Program-made: the position numbers and the translations under genes
Notes under the pieces: model-generated
The model's input: only the letters and a program-made list of their open reading frames with translations
The model's database searches: none
What the model was told of the DNA's origin: nothing
In this document: one piece after another, positions 42,719-48,589 of the stretch
Layout: every line of letters begins with the position of its first letter
Position numbering within the stretch: the stretch's first letter is position 1
Assembly: GCF_013408925.1 (NCBI RefSeq)
Contig: NZ_JACCAB010000001.1
Coordinates: forward strand, 1,240,001 to 1,304,000
Length of the DNA: 64,000 nt
Source of the DNA: Pedococcus badiiscoriae
Lineage (GTDB): Bacteria; Actinomycetota; Actinomycetes; Actinomycetales; Dermatophilaceae
Direction: 5' to 3'

Positions 42719-42755
42719 AGCGGCACGGCATACGGAGTCTGTATGCCGTGCCGCT
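42719..42755 (+). terminator. strong hairpin after the YtxH-like gene
   Basis: Perfect 15-bp stem AGCGGCACGGCATAC/GTATGCCGTGCCGCT with a 7-base loop, 60 bases after the stop. No T tract follows (CCTGTGTT). Both arms carry the over-represented GGCATAC/GTATGCC heptamer, and the core GGCACGGCATA is shared with the 19358 hairpin. Confidence 0.7.
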
Positions 42756-43204
42756 CCTGTGTTGCTGGACTCAACGGCGTCGCCGAGGAGGCCCGGCTGG
42801 GCGCGTGCTGGGTACCCCCGACCAGCACCTTCCACAACCTGACCTACCCGGCGACGCGCCCCGAAGGGCGGGATGGCAGCACGCCCCCACGAACTGCCGC
42901 CCGGCCCGCTGGCACCCCTGTGACCAGCGGTCCTTCATCGCCCGGACCCGTCGCCCCCTGCGACAGGTCCTGCACGACATGTGGCGTCCTCTCCGTTGTG
43001 TCCTCCTCGGTCCCCCGACCAGGTCTGACACTGGACAAGAGCGGGCAGGGCGGGCCCTGATACATCGCCGGTGAGGAAAACTTCCGACGAGTTCGCGACG
43101 GCCGTCCGGTATCACCCGGCCGGTCAGGTTCTCCTGTCAGATGAGGCATTCCCTCACTACGCTGAACACCGCACGCCGTGGTCGGCACGACCTCAGGAGA
43201 TCCG
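42756..43204. other. Upstream region of the subtilase/sigma/CHAT operon
   Basis: 449 bases with no convincing gene on either strand. The right end should contain the operon promoter; an inverted repeat TGAGG-(5)-CCTCA is at 43142-43156, and AGGAG precedes the ATG at 43205. No match to a known promoter class is claimed. Confidence 0.55.
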
Positions 43205-44887
43205 ATGGCCGCATCAGCCCCCCCGCCGTCCTCGGGGCCGGGACCCGCACCCTGGGTCGCGATCCCCCGCTCGGCGGCGCGACGCCTCGACGTGCGCGTG
43301 CTCGATCCCGCCAAGGCGGTGCGGCTCGACGGTGACGACGCCCTCGCCCCCACCCTGTATGCCGGCAACCAGCTCCTCGTGCGGGGCCTCGCGACGCGGT
43401 CGGCGCAGGGCCCCATCAGCGCGCTCACGGCCATCGCCGAGCGGCTGGGCTACTCCGTCCAGGCCCACCGCGACGAGCGCTTCGAGGCCTTGGTCGAGCA
43501 GAACGAGCTCGGCGAGGTGGTCGACCTGGCCGTGTCGACGACCGTGCGGTTCCGGCCCTTGCCGGATCGTCCCGTCGTGGCTCCCGATGCCTGGCTGATC
43601 CTGCAGACCCTGCGGGCGCAGGACCCGGAGTCGGCGAAGGCCGTGAGCCTCAGCCACATCGTGACTGCGTCGGGCTACGGGTCCGGCGTGGGCTACGGCT
43701 CGGGTGTCGGGTACGGCTCCGGCGTGGGCTACGGCTCCGGTGTCGGCTACGGCTCCGGCGTGGGCTATGGATCCGGCGTGGGCTACGGCTCGGGCGTGGG
43801 TGACGAAGACGTGCAGATGCCCGGTGGCGGGCCCTCGCCCCGCTGCCCGGTGGCCTGGGCAGGAGCTGCGCCCCGGGGCGTGGTCCGGGGCGAGAAGCAC
43901 GAGGGGGGCGGCGGCGGCGACCGGGACTCCGACGACGCCGCGGCACCGGTGGTGGCGCTGCTCGACACCGGACTCGGGGAGCACCCCTGGTTCACCGACG
44001 GCATCATCCGCGACGTGACCGTCGACGGCATACCGATCGGCTTGCGGTTCAACCCTGACGACGACCCGGAGCTGTCCGGCTGCACGCTCGACCGGGTCAA
44101 CGGGCTGCTCGACCCGTTGGCGGGTCACGGCACCTTCATCGCAGGAGTGGTGCGCCAGCACTGCCCGCAGGCCACGCTGCTGGTCGTCCCGGTCATGTTC
44201 GGCGACGGCGTCACCGACGAGGCTTACCTCGTCGAGACCCTCGGACTGCTCTACGTCCGCCAGCTGCTCGCCCTCTCCGACCGCGACAAGGGACCGGCGA
44301 TCGACGTCCTGTCGCTCTCGCTGGGCTACTACCACGAGACGCCCGGCGCGTTCGATGACGAGCCTGCATTCTTCGGCATCCTGCGGGCACTGGCCGGCAC
44401 CGGCGTGGCCGTGGTGGCCGCGGCAGGGAATGGCGGCACCAACCACGAGTTCTACCCTGCGGCCTTCGCTGTCTCGGAAGGGTTCGAGGTGCCCCTGGCG
44501 AGTGTGGGCACCTACAACCCGGACGGGCGCACGGTGTCGGTCTACTCCAACACCGGACACTGGGTACGGGCCTACCGCTGCGGGACCGCGGTCGTCAGCA
44601 CGATGCCAGTCACCTTCAACGGCAGCCTGCGGCCGGTCCTGCACCAGCCGGCCGGCGCGGACCCGGCCCGCGGGTCGTGCGACCCCGACGACTTCTCGAG
44701 CGGCTTCGCCCTCTGGAGTGGCACCTCGTTCGCGGCGCCGGCGTATGCCGGTGACCTCGCCTCACACCTGCACCGGGAGTGCTGGGCCGAGGTCCGGGGC
44801 CTCACGGTCCGGGGCGCGGAGCTCGCCAAGGCCCGCGTCGACGCACTGGCCAAGGCTGTCGCCCGGCTCGACGAGGACGAGCGGTGA
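43205..44887 (+). CDS. S8-family subtilisin-like serine protease, cytosolic
   Basis: 560 residues, no signal peptide. An N-terminal alpha/beta region (residues 1-155), a tandem repeat of seven GYGSGV hexapeptides (about 157-198), a Gly/Asp-rich linker, then the peptidase: D254 (ALLDTGLGEHPW), H308 (GHGTFIAGVV), the oxyanion Asn in AAAGNGGTNH, and S508 (SGTSFAAPAYAGDLA). All catalytic residues are present. AGGAG is seven bases before ATG 43205; GTG 43178 is a weaker alternative. The stop overlaps the sigma-factor start. It is first gene of a four-gene operon with a sigma factor and a TPR-CHAT protease, which suggests regulated intracellular proteolysis rather than secretion. Confidence 0.93.
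   Translation: MAASAPPPSSGPGPAPWVAIPRSAARRLDVRVLDPAKAVRLDGDDALAPTLYAGNQLLVRGLATRSAQGPISALTAIAERLGYSVQAHRDERFEALVEQNELGEVVDLAVSTTVRFRPLPDRPVVAPDAWLILQTLRAQDPESAKAVSLSHIVTASGYGSGVGYGSGVGYGSGVGYGSGVGYGSGVGYGSGVGYGSGVGDEDVQMPGGGPSPRCPVAWAGAAPRGVVRGEKHEGGGGGDRDSDDAAAPVVALLDTGLGEHPWFTDGIIRDVTVDGIPIGLRFNPDDDPELSGCTLDRVNGLLDPLAGHGTFIAGVVRQHCPQATLLVVPVMFGDGVTDEAYLVETLGLLYVRQLLALSDRDKGPAIDVLSLSLGYYHETPGAFDDEPAFFGILRALAGTGVAVVAAAGNGGTNHEFYPAAFAVSEGFEVPLASVGTYNPDGRTVSVYSNTGHWVRAYRCGTAVVSTMPVTFNGSLRPVLHQPAGADPARGSCDPDDFSSGFALWSGTSFAAPAYAGDLASHLHRECWAEVRGLTVRGAELAKARVDALAKAVARLDEDER
43673..43798 (+). repeat. 7 x 18-bp tandem repeat inside the subtilase gene
   Basis: Seven in-frame copies of an 18-bp unit encoding GYGSGV. 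Codons vary mainly at third positions, so the protein repeat is maintained while DNA identity has drifted, which argues it is used and not a fresh slippage product. Confidence 0.95.
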
Positions 44888-45480
44888 TGCAGGCCGAGGG
44901 CGGCACCCGCAGCCTCGCCGAGCTCGCAGCCCGTGCCTTCGCCGACTACCGGGACGGGCGCCCCGAGGCGATGTCACAGCTGGTGGACAGCACCACCACG
45001 CTGCTGTGGCACACCGCCCGGGCGCAGGGGCTCAGCGGCCCGCAGGCCGAGGACGTCGTGCAGAACACCTGGCTGTCGCTGGTCCAGCACGCGTCGGGGA
45101 TCGCGGATCCGCAAGGTGTGCTGAAGTGGCTGCTCACCACCACCCGGCGCGAGGCCTGGGCCGTGTCGCGGCGGTCTCGGCGCGAGGACGTGCGAGACGA
45201 CATGGGCGACGCGATGCCCGATGTCGCCCCGACCTCGGACGAGCCGGCCGCAGTCGTCGTGCGCAGCCAGGAGCAGAGGTTGCTGTGGCGTCACTTCAAG
45301 GACCTGCCCGAGCGGTGCCAGCAGCTCCTGCGGGTGATCGCCCTCGCTGACCGGCCCGACTACGCGCAGGTCGCCGAGGCGCTCGGCATGCCCGTCGGCA
45401 GCATCGGACCCACCCGCGGGCGCTGCCTGGCCAAGCTCCGAAGTGCCCTGATCGGCGACCCCGGGTGGGCGACGTCGTGA
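44887..45480 (+). CDS. ECF-like RNA polymerase sigma factor
   Basis: 197 residues. Sigma region 2 spans about 35-105 (RAQGLSGPQAEDVVQNTWLSL, the core-binding/-10 melting region; then LLTTTRREAWAVSRRSRRE). Region 4 is about 135-185 (LPERCQQLLRVIALADRPDY, AQVAEALGMPVGSIGPTRGR, the -35-binding HTH). No region 1.1 or 3. ATG 44887 shares a base with the protease stop; GTG 44884 is an alternative. No separate zinc-finger anti-sigma gene is adjacent; the next small protein is the only candidate partner. Confidence 0.92.
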   Translation: MQAEGGTRSLAELAARAFADYRDGRPEAMSQLVDSTTTLLWHTARAQGLSGPQAEDVVQNTWLSLVQHASGIADPQGVLKWLLTTTRREAWAVSRRSRREDVRDDMGDAMPDVAPTSDEPAAVVVRSQEQRLLWRHFKDLPERCQQLLRVIALADRPDYAQVAEALGMPVGSIGPTRGRCLAKLRSALIGDPGWATS

Positions 45481-45977
45481 GCGCCGACGGCGACTGGGAG
45501 GCCGCGGCCCTCGGCGAGATCGACGACCAGGACCTCAGGGCGCTCGCGATGCTCCGGACCGTCCTGCAGGCCAGCGACCCGGTGCCGAGCGGCCTGGCCG
45601 AGCGTGCGAAGTTCGCGATGTCGGTGGCTGCCCTAGAGGCGGAGGTCGCGGAGATCACGACGACGACCGCCGAGCTCGCCGGAGTGCGTTCCACGCAGTA
45701 CGACCGCGCCGGCACGATCACCTTCTCCAGCGACCAGCTCAGCGCGATGATCACCATCGAGATGCTGGAGGGCGGCGGAGCGCGGCTGAGCGGCTGGGTC
45801 ACCACCGGGCCCACTCACGTCGAGCTGCGCGAGCGGTCCCGCACCCAGGAGACCACCACCGACGACGCCGGCCGGTTCGCCTTCGCCTCCGTCGAACGCG
45901 GACTGGTCCACCTCGTCCTGCGCCGCCTCGACGAGCCGCAGGGCCGGCCGGTCATCACTCCCGCCATCGAGATCTGA
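45477..45977 (+). CDS. small helical + beta-sandwich protein of the CHAT operon
   Basis: 166 residues from GTG 45477, which overlaps the sigma stop (GTGA); GTG 45465 is an alternative. Two parts are seen: an acidic helical N-terminus (about 1-60: DWEAAALGEIDDQDLRALAM, then AERAKFAMSVAALEAEVAEI) and a beta-rich C-terminus resembling a carboxypeptidase-regulatory/Ig-like fold (LSGWVTTGPTHVELRERS, TTTDDAGRFAFASVERGLVHL). No signal peptide, transmembrane helix or zinc motif. By position it could be an anti-sigma or the substrate linking protease and sigma factor; this is inference only. Confidence 0.8.
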   Translation: MSADGDWEAAALGEIDDQDLRALAMLRTVLQASDPVPSGLAERAKFAMSVAALEAEVAEITTTTAELAGVRSTQYDRAGTITFSSDQLSAMITIEMLEGGGARLSGWVTTGPTHVELRERSRTQETTTDDAGRFAFASVERGLVHLVLRRLDEPQGRPVITPAIEI

Positions 45978-46018
45978 GGTACGACATCGAGGTTGCTGAC
46001 CACCAGGTCGCCGAGCTC

Positions 46019-48589
46019 TTGGCCCGAGCGCGGAACCTCAACGAGATCGGCAGGTTCCGCGAGGCCGAGCGCGACCTTCGGCGCGCCCTCGTGCTTGCTG
46101 ACGGCCTGGACGGCGAGGAACGCGTCGCCACGCGCGCGCGGCTGCTCATCACGCTCGCCTGGCCGACCCTGGCGCTGCACGGCCTGGACCAGGCCCTCGC
46201 CATGCTCGCCGAGTCGCGCGAGCAGAGCGACTCGCCGCGGCTGCGCGCGCTGAGCTGGATCCAGGAGGCGGTCGTGCACGTCTCCTGCCAGGACTGGCGG
46301 GCGGCTCTCGATGCCCTGAACAGGCTCGGCGACACCGACGGGCTCCTGGTGCCCAGTGAGGAGGTCGCGGCCCGCATCAACGCGGGACTCGCCCACCTCT
46401 CCCTGCTGGAGCTCGCGCCCGCTCGCGCCGAGCTCCTCTCCGCGCTCGAGATCTGTGTCGCCAATGGGCTCGTGGAGAAGGAGTTCAAGGTCAGGCACAA
46501 CCTGGGCTGCCTCGAGTACTACGCCGGCCGGCTCCCCGAAGCAATCCGCCTCATGCGCGAGGCCGACGAGATGGACGTGCAGGTGGGCCGGGTCAGGGCC
46601 CAGCACGACCTCGCGCTGGTCCTGCTGGAGGCGGGGTTGCTCGACCAGGCGCGCGAGACGCTGACGCGGGCGCTCGACGAGGCCCGGCACGACGGCCACC
46701 GCCTCGAGGAGGCCGACCTCCGCCTGGACCTCGCGACGACGGCCCTGCTGCGCGACGAGCTCTCGACAGCGCGGCAGCACCTCGACGCCGCGGTGGCCGC
46801 GTTCCGCGCACGAGGGGCGGGCGAGCGTCAGCGGAGCGCCGCACTGCTGCGCGCATGGGTGGCCGTGACGGAGGGGGTCGTGCCGCGCGGGTTGGACCGC
46901 ACCCTCGCACCCTGGCTGGGCGTCGACCGACCGGTCACCCCCGACGAGCGGCTCGCGGCGCGGGTGCACGTCGAGTCCCTGTTGCTGCGGGGCCGCGTCG
47001 CCGAGGCCGGGTATGCCGTGCAGAGGCTGCGGGGCAGGGCACGCCAGGGCTTCGCCGCCGACATGCATGATCGACTGCTCGTTGCGAAAGTCGCTGCGGC
47101 ACAGGGCAACAGCTCCGGCTCTCGCAGAGCAGTGCGCTCGGCCATGCACCGGCTGACCCAGCGACAGGCCCCCAGCCAGAGCGTCGAGATCCGGTCGGCC
47201 CTCGCTCTGCACGGGCGAAGGATCGCGGACTTCGACGTGAACGACGCGCTCGCGAGCGGGTCACCCGTGCGGGTCTTCGAGGCGGTCGAGCGATGGCGCG
47301 CGGTGTCGCACCGCCTGCCGCTGTTGTCCGGCCCCCAGGACGGGCGCTCGGCCGAGCTGGTCGCCGAGCTGCGCCAGGCCCGTCGTGAAGGTGCCGCGCC
47401 CGGCGAGGAGGGGGCCAGGCACCGTGCTCGCGCCACCGAGCTCGAGTGGGAGGTGAGCCGCCTGGACTGGTCGCGGGCCGAGGACGACGGGGGCGCGACA
47501 GCCGGGGGCGCGACAGGCGGCGGCACGACAGGCGGCGGCACGACACGCGTGGCGCCGGTCGGGCATGCCGCGGCGCGGGACCTGCTCGGGTCCCGCGGCG
47601 AGCAGGGCCTGGTGTGGGTCGCGCAGGACGGTGAGGAGTACCTCCTGGTCGTGACCCCCAGGCGGACCCGGCTGCACCACGTGGGCTCGGCGTCAGAGGT
47701 CGCGGCGCTGGCCGACCGCCTCGCGCGCGACCTGCACGCGCACGCCTTCGCCGGCACGAACCCGGCCCTGGAGGCAGCCGTGGGCCGGGCCGTGGCTGGT
47801 TCGGTGGCCGCGCTCGACGCGAGGCTCTTCGCCGACGTGCAGCTGGCCGACGGACCTGTCGTCGTGGTCCCCGGGCGCACCCTGATGGCGGTGCCGTGGG
47901 GGATGCTGCCCACCCTCGCGGGTCGCCCGGTCACCATCGCCCCCTCGGTGACTCGGTGGGCCGTGCCGCTGCTGGCCACCGAGGTCGATCCGCCTGGCCG
48001 GCTCAAGGTCACCACCCTGACGGGGCCGCGACTGGAGCGGGCGGCCGCCGAGGCCGAGGCGGTGGCCCGCGTGTGGGAAGGGGTCGGCGCCCTGTCGAAC
48101 CGCCAGGAGGCCGCAACGGCGGAGGCCGTCAGGGACGCGCTGGCCCGCGACGGCGTGGTCCACGTGGCCGCGCACGGCACCCACGAGCGGCAGAGCCCGT
48201 GGTTCTCGTCACTGCACATGGCCGACGGGCCGGTCTTCGCGCACGAGCTCCGGCGCCGGGCGACGGCCCGCCACGTCGTGCTCTCCGCCTGTGACGTGGG
48301 ACGGCTCGACCCCCGCCCCGGCGACGAGCCGCTCGGGCTGACGGCCGCCCTGATGGCCTTGGGCGTGCGCAGCATCGTCGCGCCGGTGGCCCCGGTCTCT
48401 GATGCTGTGGCAGCCGACGCGATGGTGGCCTACCACCGGCGTCTGGCCCGCGGCGACTCCGCGTCGCAGGCCCTGGCCGCGACCCTCGCCGAGCATCCGG
48501 GTGCCGGCGCGTTCTGCCTCTACGGCACGGACTGGCGCCCGGAGACCTCTCAGATCCAGAGGGCGGGGTCCTTGAACATCGCCTCGTAG
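46019..48589 (+). CDS. TPR-CHAT caspase-like protease
   Basis: At least 856 residues. Residues 1 to about 330 are helical tetratricopeptide-type repeats (for example [20 protein letters not shown]); a coiled linker with a Gly/Thr-rich spacer (GGATGGGTTGGGTT) at about 497-510 follows; the C-terminal CHAT domain (about 515-850) has H719 in [15 protein letters not shown] and C758 in [13 protein letters not shown], the expected His-Cys dyad. TTG 46019 is the first standard start; the frame is open further back and CTG 45974, overlapping the previous stop as CTGA, would match the overlaps at the two earlier junctions and add [19 protein letters not shown]. The end overlaps cysE antisense by 40 bases. 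Confidence 0.92.

Follow-up and report, generated by a model that had tools for sequence, protein, structure and literature searches.

In actinobacteria, the ECF54 group of extracytoplasmic function (ECF) sigma factors has been described with conserved nearby proteins carrying carboxypeptidase, subtilase and CHAT domains, according to the passages on this group in PMC8999054, which refer to Huang 2015 and Casas-Pastor 2021 and give SFT86700.1 as an example. Judged by title, this is the sole sigma-factor paper among those naming ECF54. In Craspase, Csx29 cuts Csx30, the protein that holds the sigma factor CASP-sigma, and sites for this sigma factor occur at its own locus, as described in parts of PMC10028731. 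Here, we analysed a four-gene cassette at positions 43205..48589 of a 64,000-nucleotide (nt) stretch of the Pedococcus badiiscoriae genome (contig NZ_JACCAB010000001.1, positions 1,240,001 to 1,304,000; hereafter, the window), which encodes a subtilase, an ECF sigma factor, a small protein (SML), and a protease with tetratricopeptide repeats (TPR) and a CHAT domain. The cassette has the conserved subtilase and CHAT neighbours given for ECF54 in those passages, and its gene association is already known. Within the literature searched, and among the matches listed, the features that are new are the start codon of the CHAT gene, which is highly probably AUC, and the proposed link between a promoter-like element and a set of target genes.

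Genes and products of the cassette

All four genes lie on the + strand, which confirms the single direction and the TGATG and GTGA junctions described in the first-pass annotation. The subtilase (43205..44887; 560 residues) matched PF00082 (E 4.9e-14), and the annotated residues D254, H308, and S508 were present, along with N409. The ECF sigma factor (44887..45480; 197 residues) scored above the cut-offs of both TIGR02937 (58.5 vs. 42.9 bits) and Sigma70_r2 (26.8 vs. 24), in agreement with its earlier designation as ECF-like. SML (45477..45977; 166 residues), a candidate sigma regulator, has N-terminal helices with a DPVP motif followed by an FN3/Ig-like beta sandwich, which is the helical plus beta-sandwich layout noted previously. 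The TPR-CHAT protein (45986..48589; PF12770, E 1.2e-26) has 867 residues when counted from a proposed ATC (AUC) start codon at 45986-45988. Its predicted His/Cys dyad had been reported as H719/C758, a numbering that counts from a TTG at 46019; the dyad itself stands and becomes H730/C769 when counted from the ATC. With TPR repeats and this dyad in a CHAT domain, it would qualify as a TPR-CHAT peptidase, and according to the Pfam model it is the single CHAT protein in the genome.

In Pfam and NCBIfam, the Peptidase_S8, ECF sigma factor, CHAT, and TPR_12 assignments were all above cut-off, and SML showed sub-threshold matches only. Searched by itself, the CHAT sequence gave no match to a PDB chain at E 0.01, and its profile matched only TPR proteins. 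The maxima of 19-residue hydropathy (1.83 at residue 389 of the subtilase and 1.74 at residue 787 of the CHAT protein) both fell within catalytic domains, and the operon proteins were therefore read as soluble on the basis of hydropathy. Matches to the PADLOC defence profiles were weak (subtilase, E 8.7e-5; BovA, E 1.5e-4). Seven GYGSGV tandem repeats separate the N-terminal part of the subtilase from its catalytic part (43673..43800, + strand); 6–9 copies were present in 5 of the first 39 relatives inspected.

Conservation of the cassette

SML was searched for in 58 genomes of relatives (own genome included), 394 genomes of the class, and 186 genomes of the family, and was found in 25, 118, and 105 of them, respectively. 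The neighbourhoods were fetched, and 126 loci including the window were compared after removal of a false match (L054). A sigma gene accompanied SML in all 126 loci, a linkage that is viewed from the SML side only, since the loci were found through SML. The exact order subtilase-sigma-SML-CHAT, whose conservation across actinobacterial genomes the first-pass annotation had left to be scored, was present in 85 loci, which speaks against a chance grouping. The other arrangements were sigma-SML-subtilase-CHAT (14 loci), sigma-SML alone (12, some at contig ends), sigma-SML-CHAT (7, some cut upstream), and a remainder of 8. A CHAT gene was nearby in 112 loci and a subtilase gene in 106. The closest possible SML start was no more than 14 nt from the sigma stop in 122 of the 126 loci, and this comparison indicates that the two genes form a pair with overlapping or directly adjoining reading frames. 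The catalytic D, H, and S and the oxyanion N were invariant in 101/101 aligned subtilases, and 92 of 104 aligned CHAT sequences had the His and Cys (gap at the site in the other 12). The four-gene module is real, though partly known already; close loci include those of Pedococcus bigeumensis and Phycicoccus sp. Soil802.

In the 16.5 kb retrieved for each of two loci (L048 and L050), a sigma-SML pair was seen but neither a subtilase nor a CHAT gene was found. At locus L183, the sigma gene continues in frame into SML, and its C-terminal region is missing; a natural sigma-SML fusion was rejected because that region had been lost through a frame change, leaving a broken copy.

Start codon of the TPR-CHAT gene

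The start codon was examined in 79 loci with the CHAT gene directly after SML (78 of the family and L045 of another family). Using one test window, an in-frame ATG, GTG, or TTG was found near the homologous start in 79/79 sigma genes and 77/79 SML genes, but only in 21/79 CHAT genes. The corresponding count for the subtilase (61/73) is probably less reliable because its N-terminus is variable. At the CHAT start position, 44 of the 79 loci, from 16 genera (labels assigned by hand), had ATC. A clear ribosome site preceded it in the 30 loci that satisfied our rule, and a weaker one in 14 loci added by eye. In the window, a Shine-Dalgarno-like GAGG (45976..45979, + strand) overlaps the SML stop and lies 6 nt before the ATC. 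The CHAT gene combines an upstream ribosome site with the lack of ATG, GTG, and TTG at its conserved start, as would a gene with an IF3-controlled non-canonical start (IF3, initiation factor 3). In 21 of the 44 ATC loci, an in-frame stop excludes an upstream canonical start: the frame does not open before the SML stop, and the ATC is preceded by no canonical codon. The first canonical codon lay at least 15 codons past the predicted start in 36 of the 44.

Among eight same-genus loci, the ATC was retained in all, 8 nt past the SML stop (15 nt in one). The first-pass annotation had suggested a CTGA junction, and this could not be upheld: the putative CTG codon was CTG in two of these loci, CTA in another five, and CCG in the last, and a CTG start was rejected because it varies while the ATC stays. 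Codon pairs from the same loci comprised 91 identical, 14 synonymous, and 119 residue-changing pairs in the 8 codons ahead of the ATC, and 386, 188, and 182, respectively, in the 27 codons past it. The ATC itself was not counted as evidence, since it had set the alignment position. Fusion of SML and CHAT by frameshift or read-through was also rejected, as the relative frames vary and an in-frame stop occurs at or after the SML stop in the 21 loci mentioned above.

Non-canonical starts were seen in other settings. Locus L047, from another family of the order and with the order sigma-SML-subtilase-CHAT, has a CHAT ATC after GAGGAGG and no ATG, GTG, or TTG nearby. In seven loci of genus g18 (L036, L109-L111, L113, L114, and L118), belonging to those with neither ATC nor a possible canonical start, ACG follows a ribosome site and looks like a further non-canonical CHAT start. 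The infC gene of the window's genome also reads as an ATC start after AGGAG, with an in-frame GTG nine codons upstream. In Streptomyces, infC has an ATC start, and sigR has a GTC start and is repressed by initiation factor 3 (IF3), as stated in parts of PMC5472188, the one actinobacterial paper judged relevant to non-canonical starts among the matches listed.

A promoter-like element and its candidate targets

Upstream of the operon, an element of the form GTATCA-N16-CTCCT (43109..43135, + strand) points toward the genes and is a proposed sigma-dependent autoregulatory promoter. A dyad search upstream of the loci retrieved GTATC-N18-TCCT in 38 of 71, compared with at most 5 in shuffles. Read on the other strand, as AGGAG-N17/18-GATAC, the element had 83 matches across the 1.15 Mb of loci (shuffle mean 1.8), nearly always directly before the first gene, be it subtilase or sigma. 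Of 119 operons, 72 had the loose form GTATC[AT]-N16-CTC upstream (57/78 family loci and 15/41 others, the latter including L051, a family locus without it), whereas no instance arose in 2380 shuffles. Among the 119 loci, the exact element stood before a first-gene subtilase in 43 and before a first-gene sigma in 9, and it moves along with the operon front. Inverted pairs of the element, spaced about 30-75 nt, are frequent; in the window, a second, leftward copy (GTATCA-N16-CTCTT; 43037..43063, − strand) has no convincing gene downstream. An initial reading of the element from AGGAG to GATAC was dropped, since the direction of gene starts and the loose-form counts favour the opposite sense. Fifteen sigma-factor columns separate the six loci that carry A at the T/A base of the element, but no co-variation is claimed because five of the six come from one genus. 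A 37-nt inverted repeat (92%) also lies upstream of the operon at about 42720-42755, and similar repeats occur in the close relatives L029-L031.

The element tracks the cassette at the genome level. Exact AGGAG-N16-TGATAC was found in 73 of 105 SML-bearing and 7 of 81 SML-free family genomes (n=186; Fisher p 4e-18), corresponding to 214 and 10 sites, respectively, whereas reversed-pattern control sites numbered 39 and 35. In the window's genome, GTATCA-N16-CTCYK had three matches (control, 0), two of them at the operon. The third is followed after 49 nt by a 62-codon open reading frame rich in cysteine and histidine (G000:C1:3123050-3123314; L305, L227), a candidate second target, and the visible target set in this genome would consist of the operon and this small reading frame.

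Across genomes, removal of the sites tagged with an operon subtilase left 97 further distinct sites, of which a few may be operon-adjacent or background. With target genes called by a simple GC-position heuristic, a gene start followed at 30-65 nt on the CTCCT side in 47 and on the other side in 8. Homologous targets recur across genera, including patatin (L238, L272), a vWA-like protein (L265, L298, L300, L342), and an uncharacterised family (L263, L311, L313, L340). Of 30 targets picked non-randomly for Pfam, by recurrence or position, 10 had a match above cut-off and 20 had none. The matches were patatin (2), CHAT (2), zinc phospholipase C, papain, M6 peptidase, TrkA-N, integrin-type vWA, and BTAD (1 each), and the two CHAT targets also matched SAVED-CHAT in PADLOC (E 1.2e-15 and 1.1e-13). 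Based on these assignments, the cassette appears to control its own promoter and scattered genes including lytic enzymes. In genome G460 (L237), a weakly trypsin-like gene, below cut-off, lies 51 nt downstream of a second, divergent element copy beside the operon.

Proposed mechanism and alternatives

Comparison among genomes supports the parts from which a mechanism can be proposed: the module with its intact active sites, the GTATCA-N16-CTCYT element ahead of the operon and of scattered target genes in genomes that carry the cassette, and the start codon. The sigma factor would read the element and transcribe its own operon and a small gene set including proteases and phospholipases. SML, which probably inhibits the sigma factor, would hold it inactive until the TPR part senses a signal and activates CHAT. 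Active CHAT, with or without the subtilase, would then cleave SML and free the sigma factor; for cleavage of SML by a protease of the operon, we see the chances as evenly balanced. The AUC start, if subject to IF3 discrimination as in infC and sigR, would limit the amount of trigger protease, and its scarcity is therefore proposed to prevent accidental firing. As a whole, a cytoplasmic, CRISPR-independent, protease-gated sigma switch of the ECF54 kind is the explanation that we somewhat favour.

Several observations count against this explanation. An ATC start was not seen in 35 of the 79 loci (20 with a possible canonical start and 15 without), and 47 of 119 loci had no loose element, including L203-L205, in which CHAT is divergent. 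One-mismatch AGGAG-N16-TGATAC sites were no commoner in the window's genome than in the control (16 vs. 24), and thus only near-exact sites carry weight. SML had no anti-sigma family match in the Pfam, NCBIfam, or PDB lists, nor was an anti-sigma structure among the best matches of fold searches, in which mostly the beta sandwich was tested. The passages on ECF54 in PMC8999054 consider control by proteolysis without an anti-sigma factor, and as the targets include proteases, the proteases of the operon could be output rather than trigger.

The two sequence features at the base of the mechanism have alternatives of their own. Translation of TPR-CHAT could begin at a downstream canonical codon, with the ATC as an internal isoleucine codon; the window has the TTG at 46019, and in 11 of the 14 weaker-site ATC loci an ATG or GTG follows the predicted start by 19 codons. 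Yet no ATG, GTG, or TTG occurs for at least 30 codons in 16 of the 44 ATC loci, and for 123 codons in one, and the synonymous fraction of changed codon pairs climbs from 14/133 before the ATC to 188/370 after it. In the predicted CHAT model (mean pLDDT, the predicted local distance difference test score, 87), the first TPR helix spans residues 6-20 counted from the ATC, and a start at TTG 46019 would cut it. We therefore regard a downstream start as very improbable and have little doubt that TPR-CHAT is translated from AUC, which probably holds for the genus of the window and for many genera related to it. Similarly, the element could be the operator of an unlinked regulator. Its frequent inverted pairing would suit an operator, as would its position just ahead of a possible housekeeping promoter (TGTCAG-N17-TACGCT, 43134-43163); a strict sigma-70 scan found no housekeeping promoter there. 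Against this stand the promoter-like spacing of its two parts, its bias in orientation, with gene starts lying 30-65 nt downstream, and its co-occurrence at the genome level with SML and hence with the sigma gene. An operator is accordingly unlikely in our estimation, and the element is very likely the promoter of the cassette's sigma factor.

At the level of the switch, the subtilase and TPR-CHAT could be effectors, with SML alone sensing the signal and freeing the sigma factor to make all of the proteases and phospholipases. This fits the separate CHAT, papain, M6, and patatin genes that bear an identical element, and the 12 loci, some at contig ends, that have sigma-SML pairs without a nearby subtilase or CHAT. 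However, the CHAT and subtilase genes of the operon are linked to sigma-SML far more tightly (112/126 and 106/126) than the scattered targets, and a throttled start codon would fit a trigger better than an effector; we consider this arrangement possible but doubtful. That the proteases degrade the sigma factor directly, with no anti-sigma factor in existence, is rather unlikely, though stated for ECF54 in those passages of PMC8999054. The SML and sigma genes overlap or adjoin in the examined loci, albeit loci found via SML, and the published 'carboxypeptidase' may be the sandwich of SML, which resembles CarboxypepD_reg (E 0.01; 16.6 bits, below the cut-off of 32.3). We suspect that the 'carboxypeptidase' near ECF54 in those passages is this beta sandwich and not a peptidase domain or enzyme.

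Implications and comparison with known systems

The passages on ECF54 in PMC8999054 provide a genetic context, but no promoter, no targets, and no logic for the switch. With a candidate binding sequence and a target list, the role of ECF54 becomes directly testable, and the lytic enzymes that make up part of the list suggest conflict or programmed death. More tentatively, the cassette may be a CRISPR-independent counterpart of Craspase in actinobacteria, in which an IF3-checked, AUC-started caspase-like protease fires a self-activating sigma factor with a death or defence regulon of CHAT, papain-like, M6, patatin, and phospholipase C genes. If so, one protease would release transcription of many other lytic enzymes, and CRISPR-linked protease-sigma modules would gain a widespread CRISPR-free relative. 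A rare protease start codon kept in 16 genera would add a protease gene to infC and sigR as cases of IF3-gated translation, and gene callers restricted to ATG, GTG, and TTG would annotate the CHAT protease with a wrong start.

Craspase of type III-E CRISPR systems (Csx29, a TPR-CHAT protein, with Csx30 and CASP-sigma) serves as the model for the proposed mechanism. The cassette differs in that no Cas1 (PF01867, E ≤ 0.001) was found in the window's genome, with a control matching in 9/14 and with Cas7-11 and arrays not searched. It has an extra subtilase and no known RNA guide. SML has 166 residues compared with 565 in Csx30, with no sequence match between them; no Csx30 chain was among the matches of SML or its profile, the fold search covering mainly the beta sandwich. 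DdvA (8rw5, 8rot) is a transmembrane anti-sigma factor, whereas the CHAT protein of the cassette looks soluble and retains its dyad. With ECF54, the cassette shares an actinobacterial ECF sigma factor with nearby subtilase and CHAT genes and proposed proteolytic control; an SML regulator, an AUC start, a promoter, and target genes are unmentioned in the ECF54 passages of PMC8999054. As in the parts of PMC5472188 on Streptomyces sigR (GTC) and infC (ATC), a non-canonical start follows a ribosome site in a sigma circuit, but the codon that lies on the sigma gene in sigR lies on the protease gene in the cassette.

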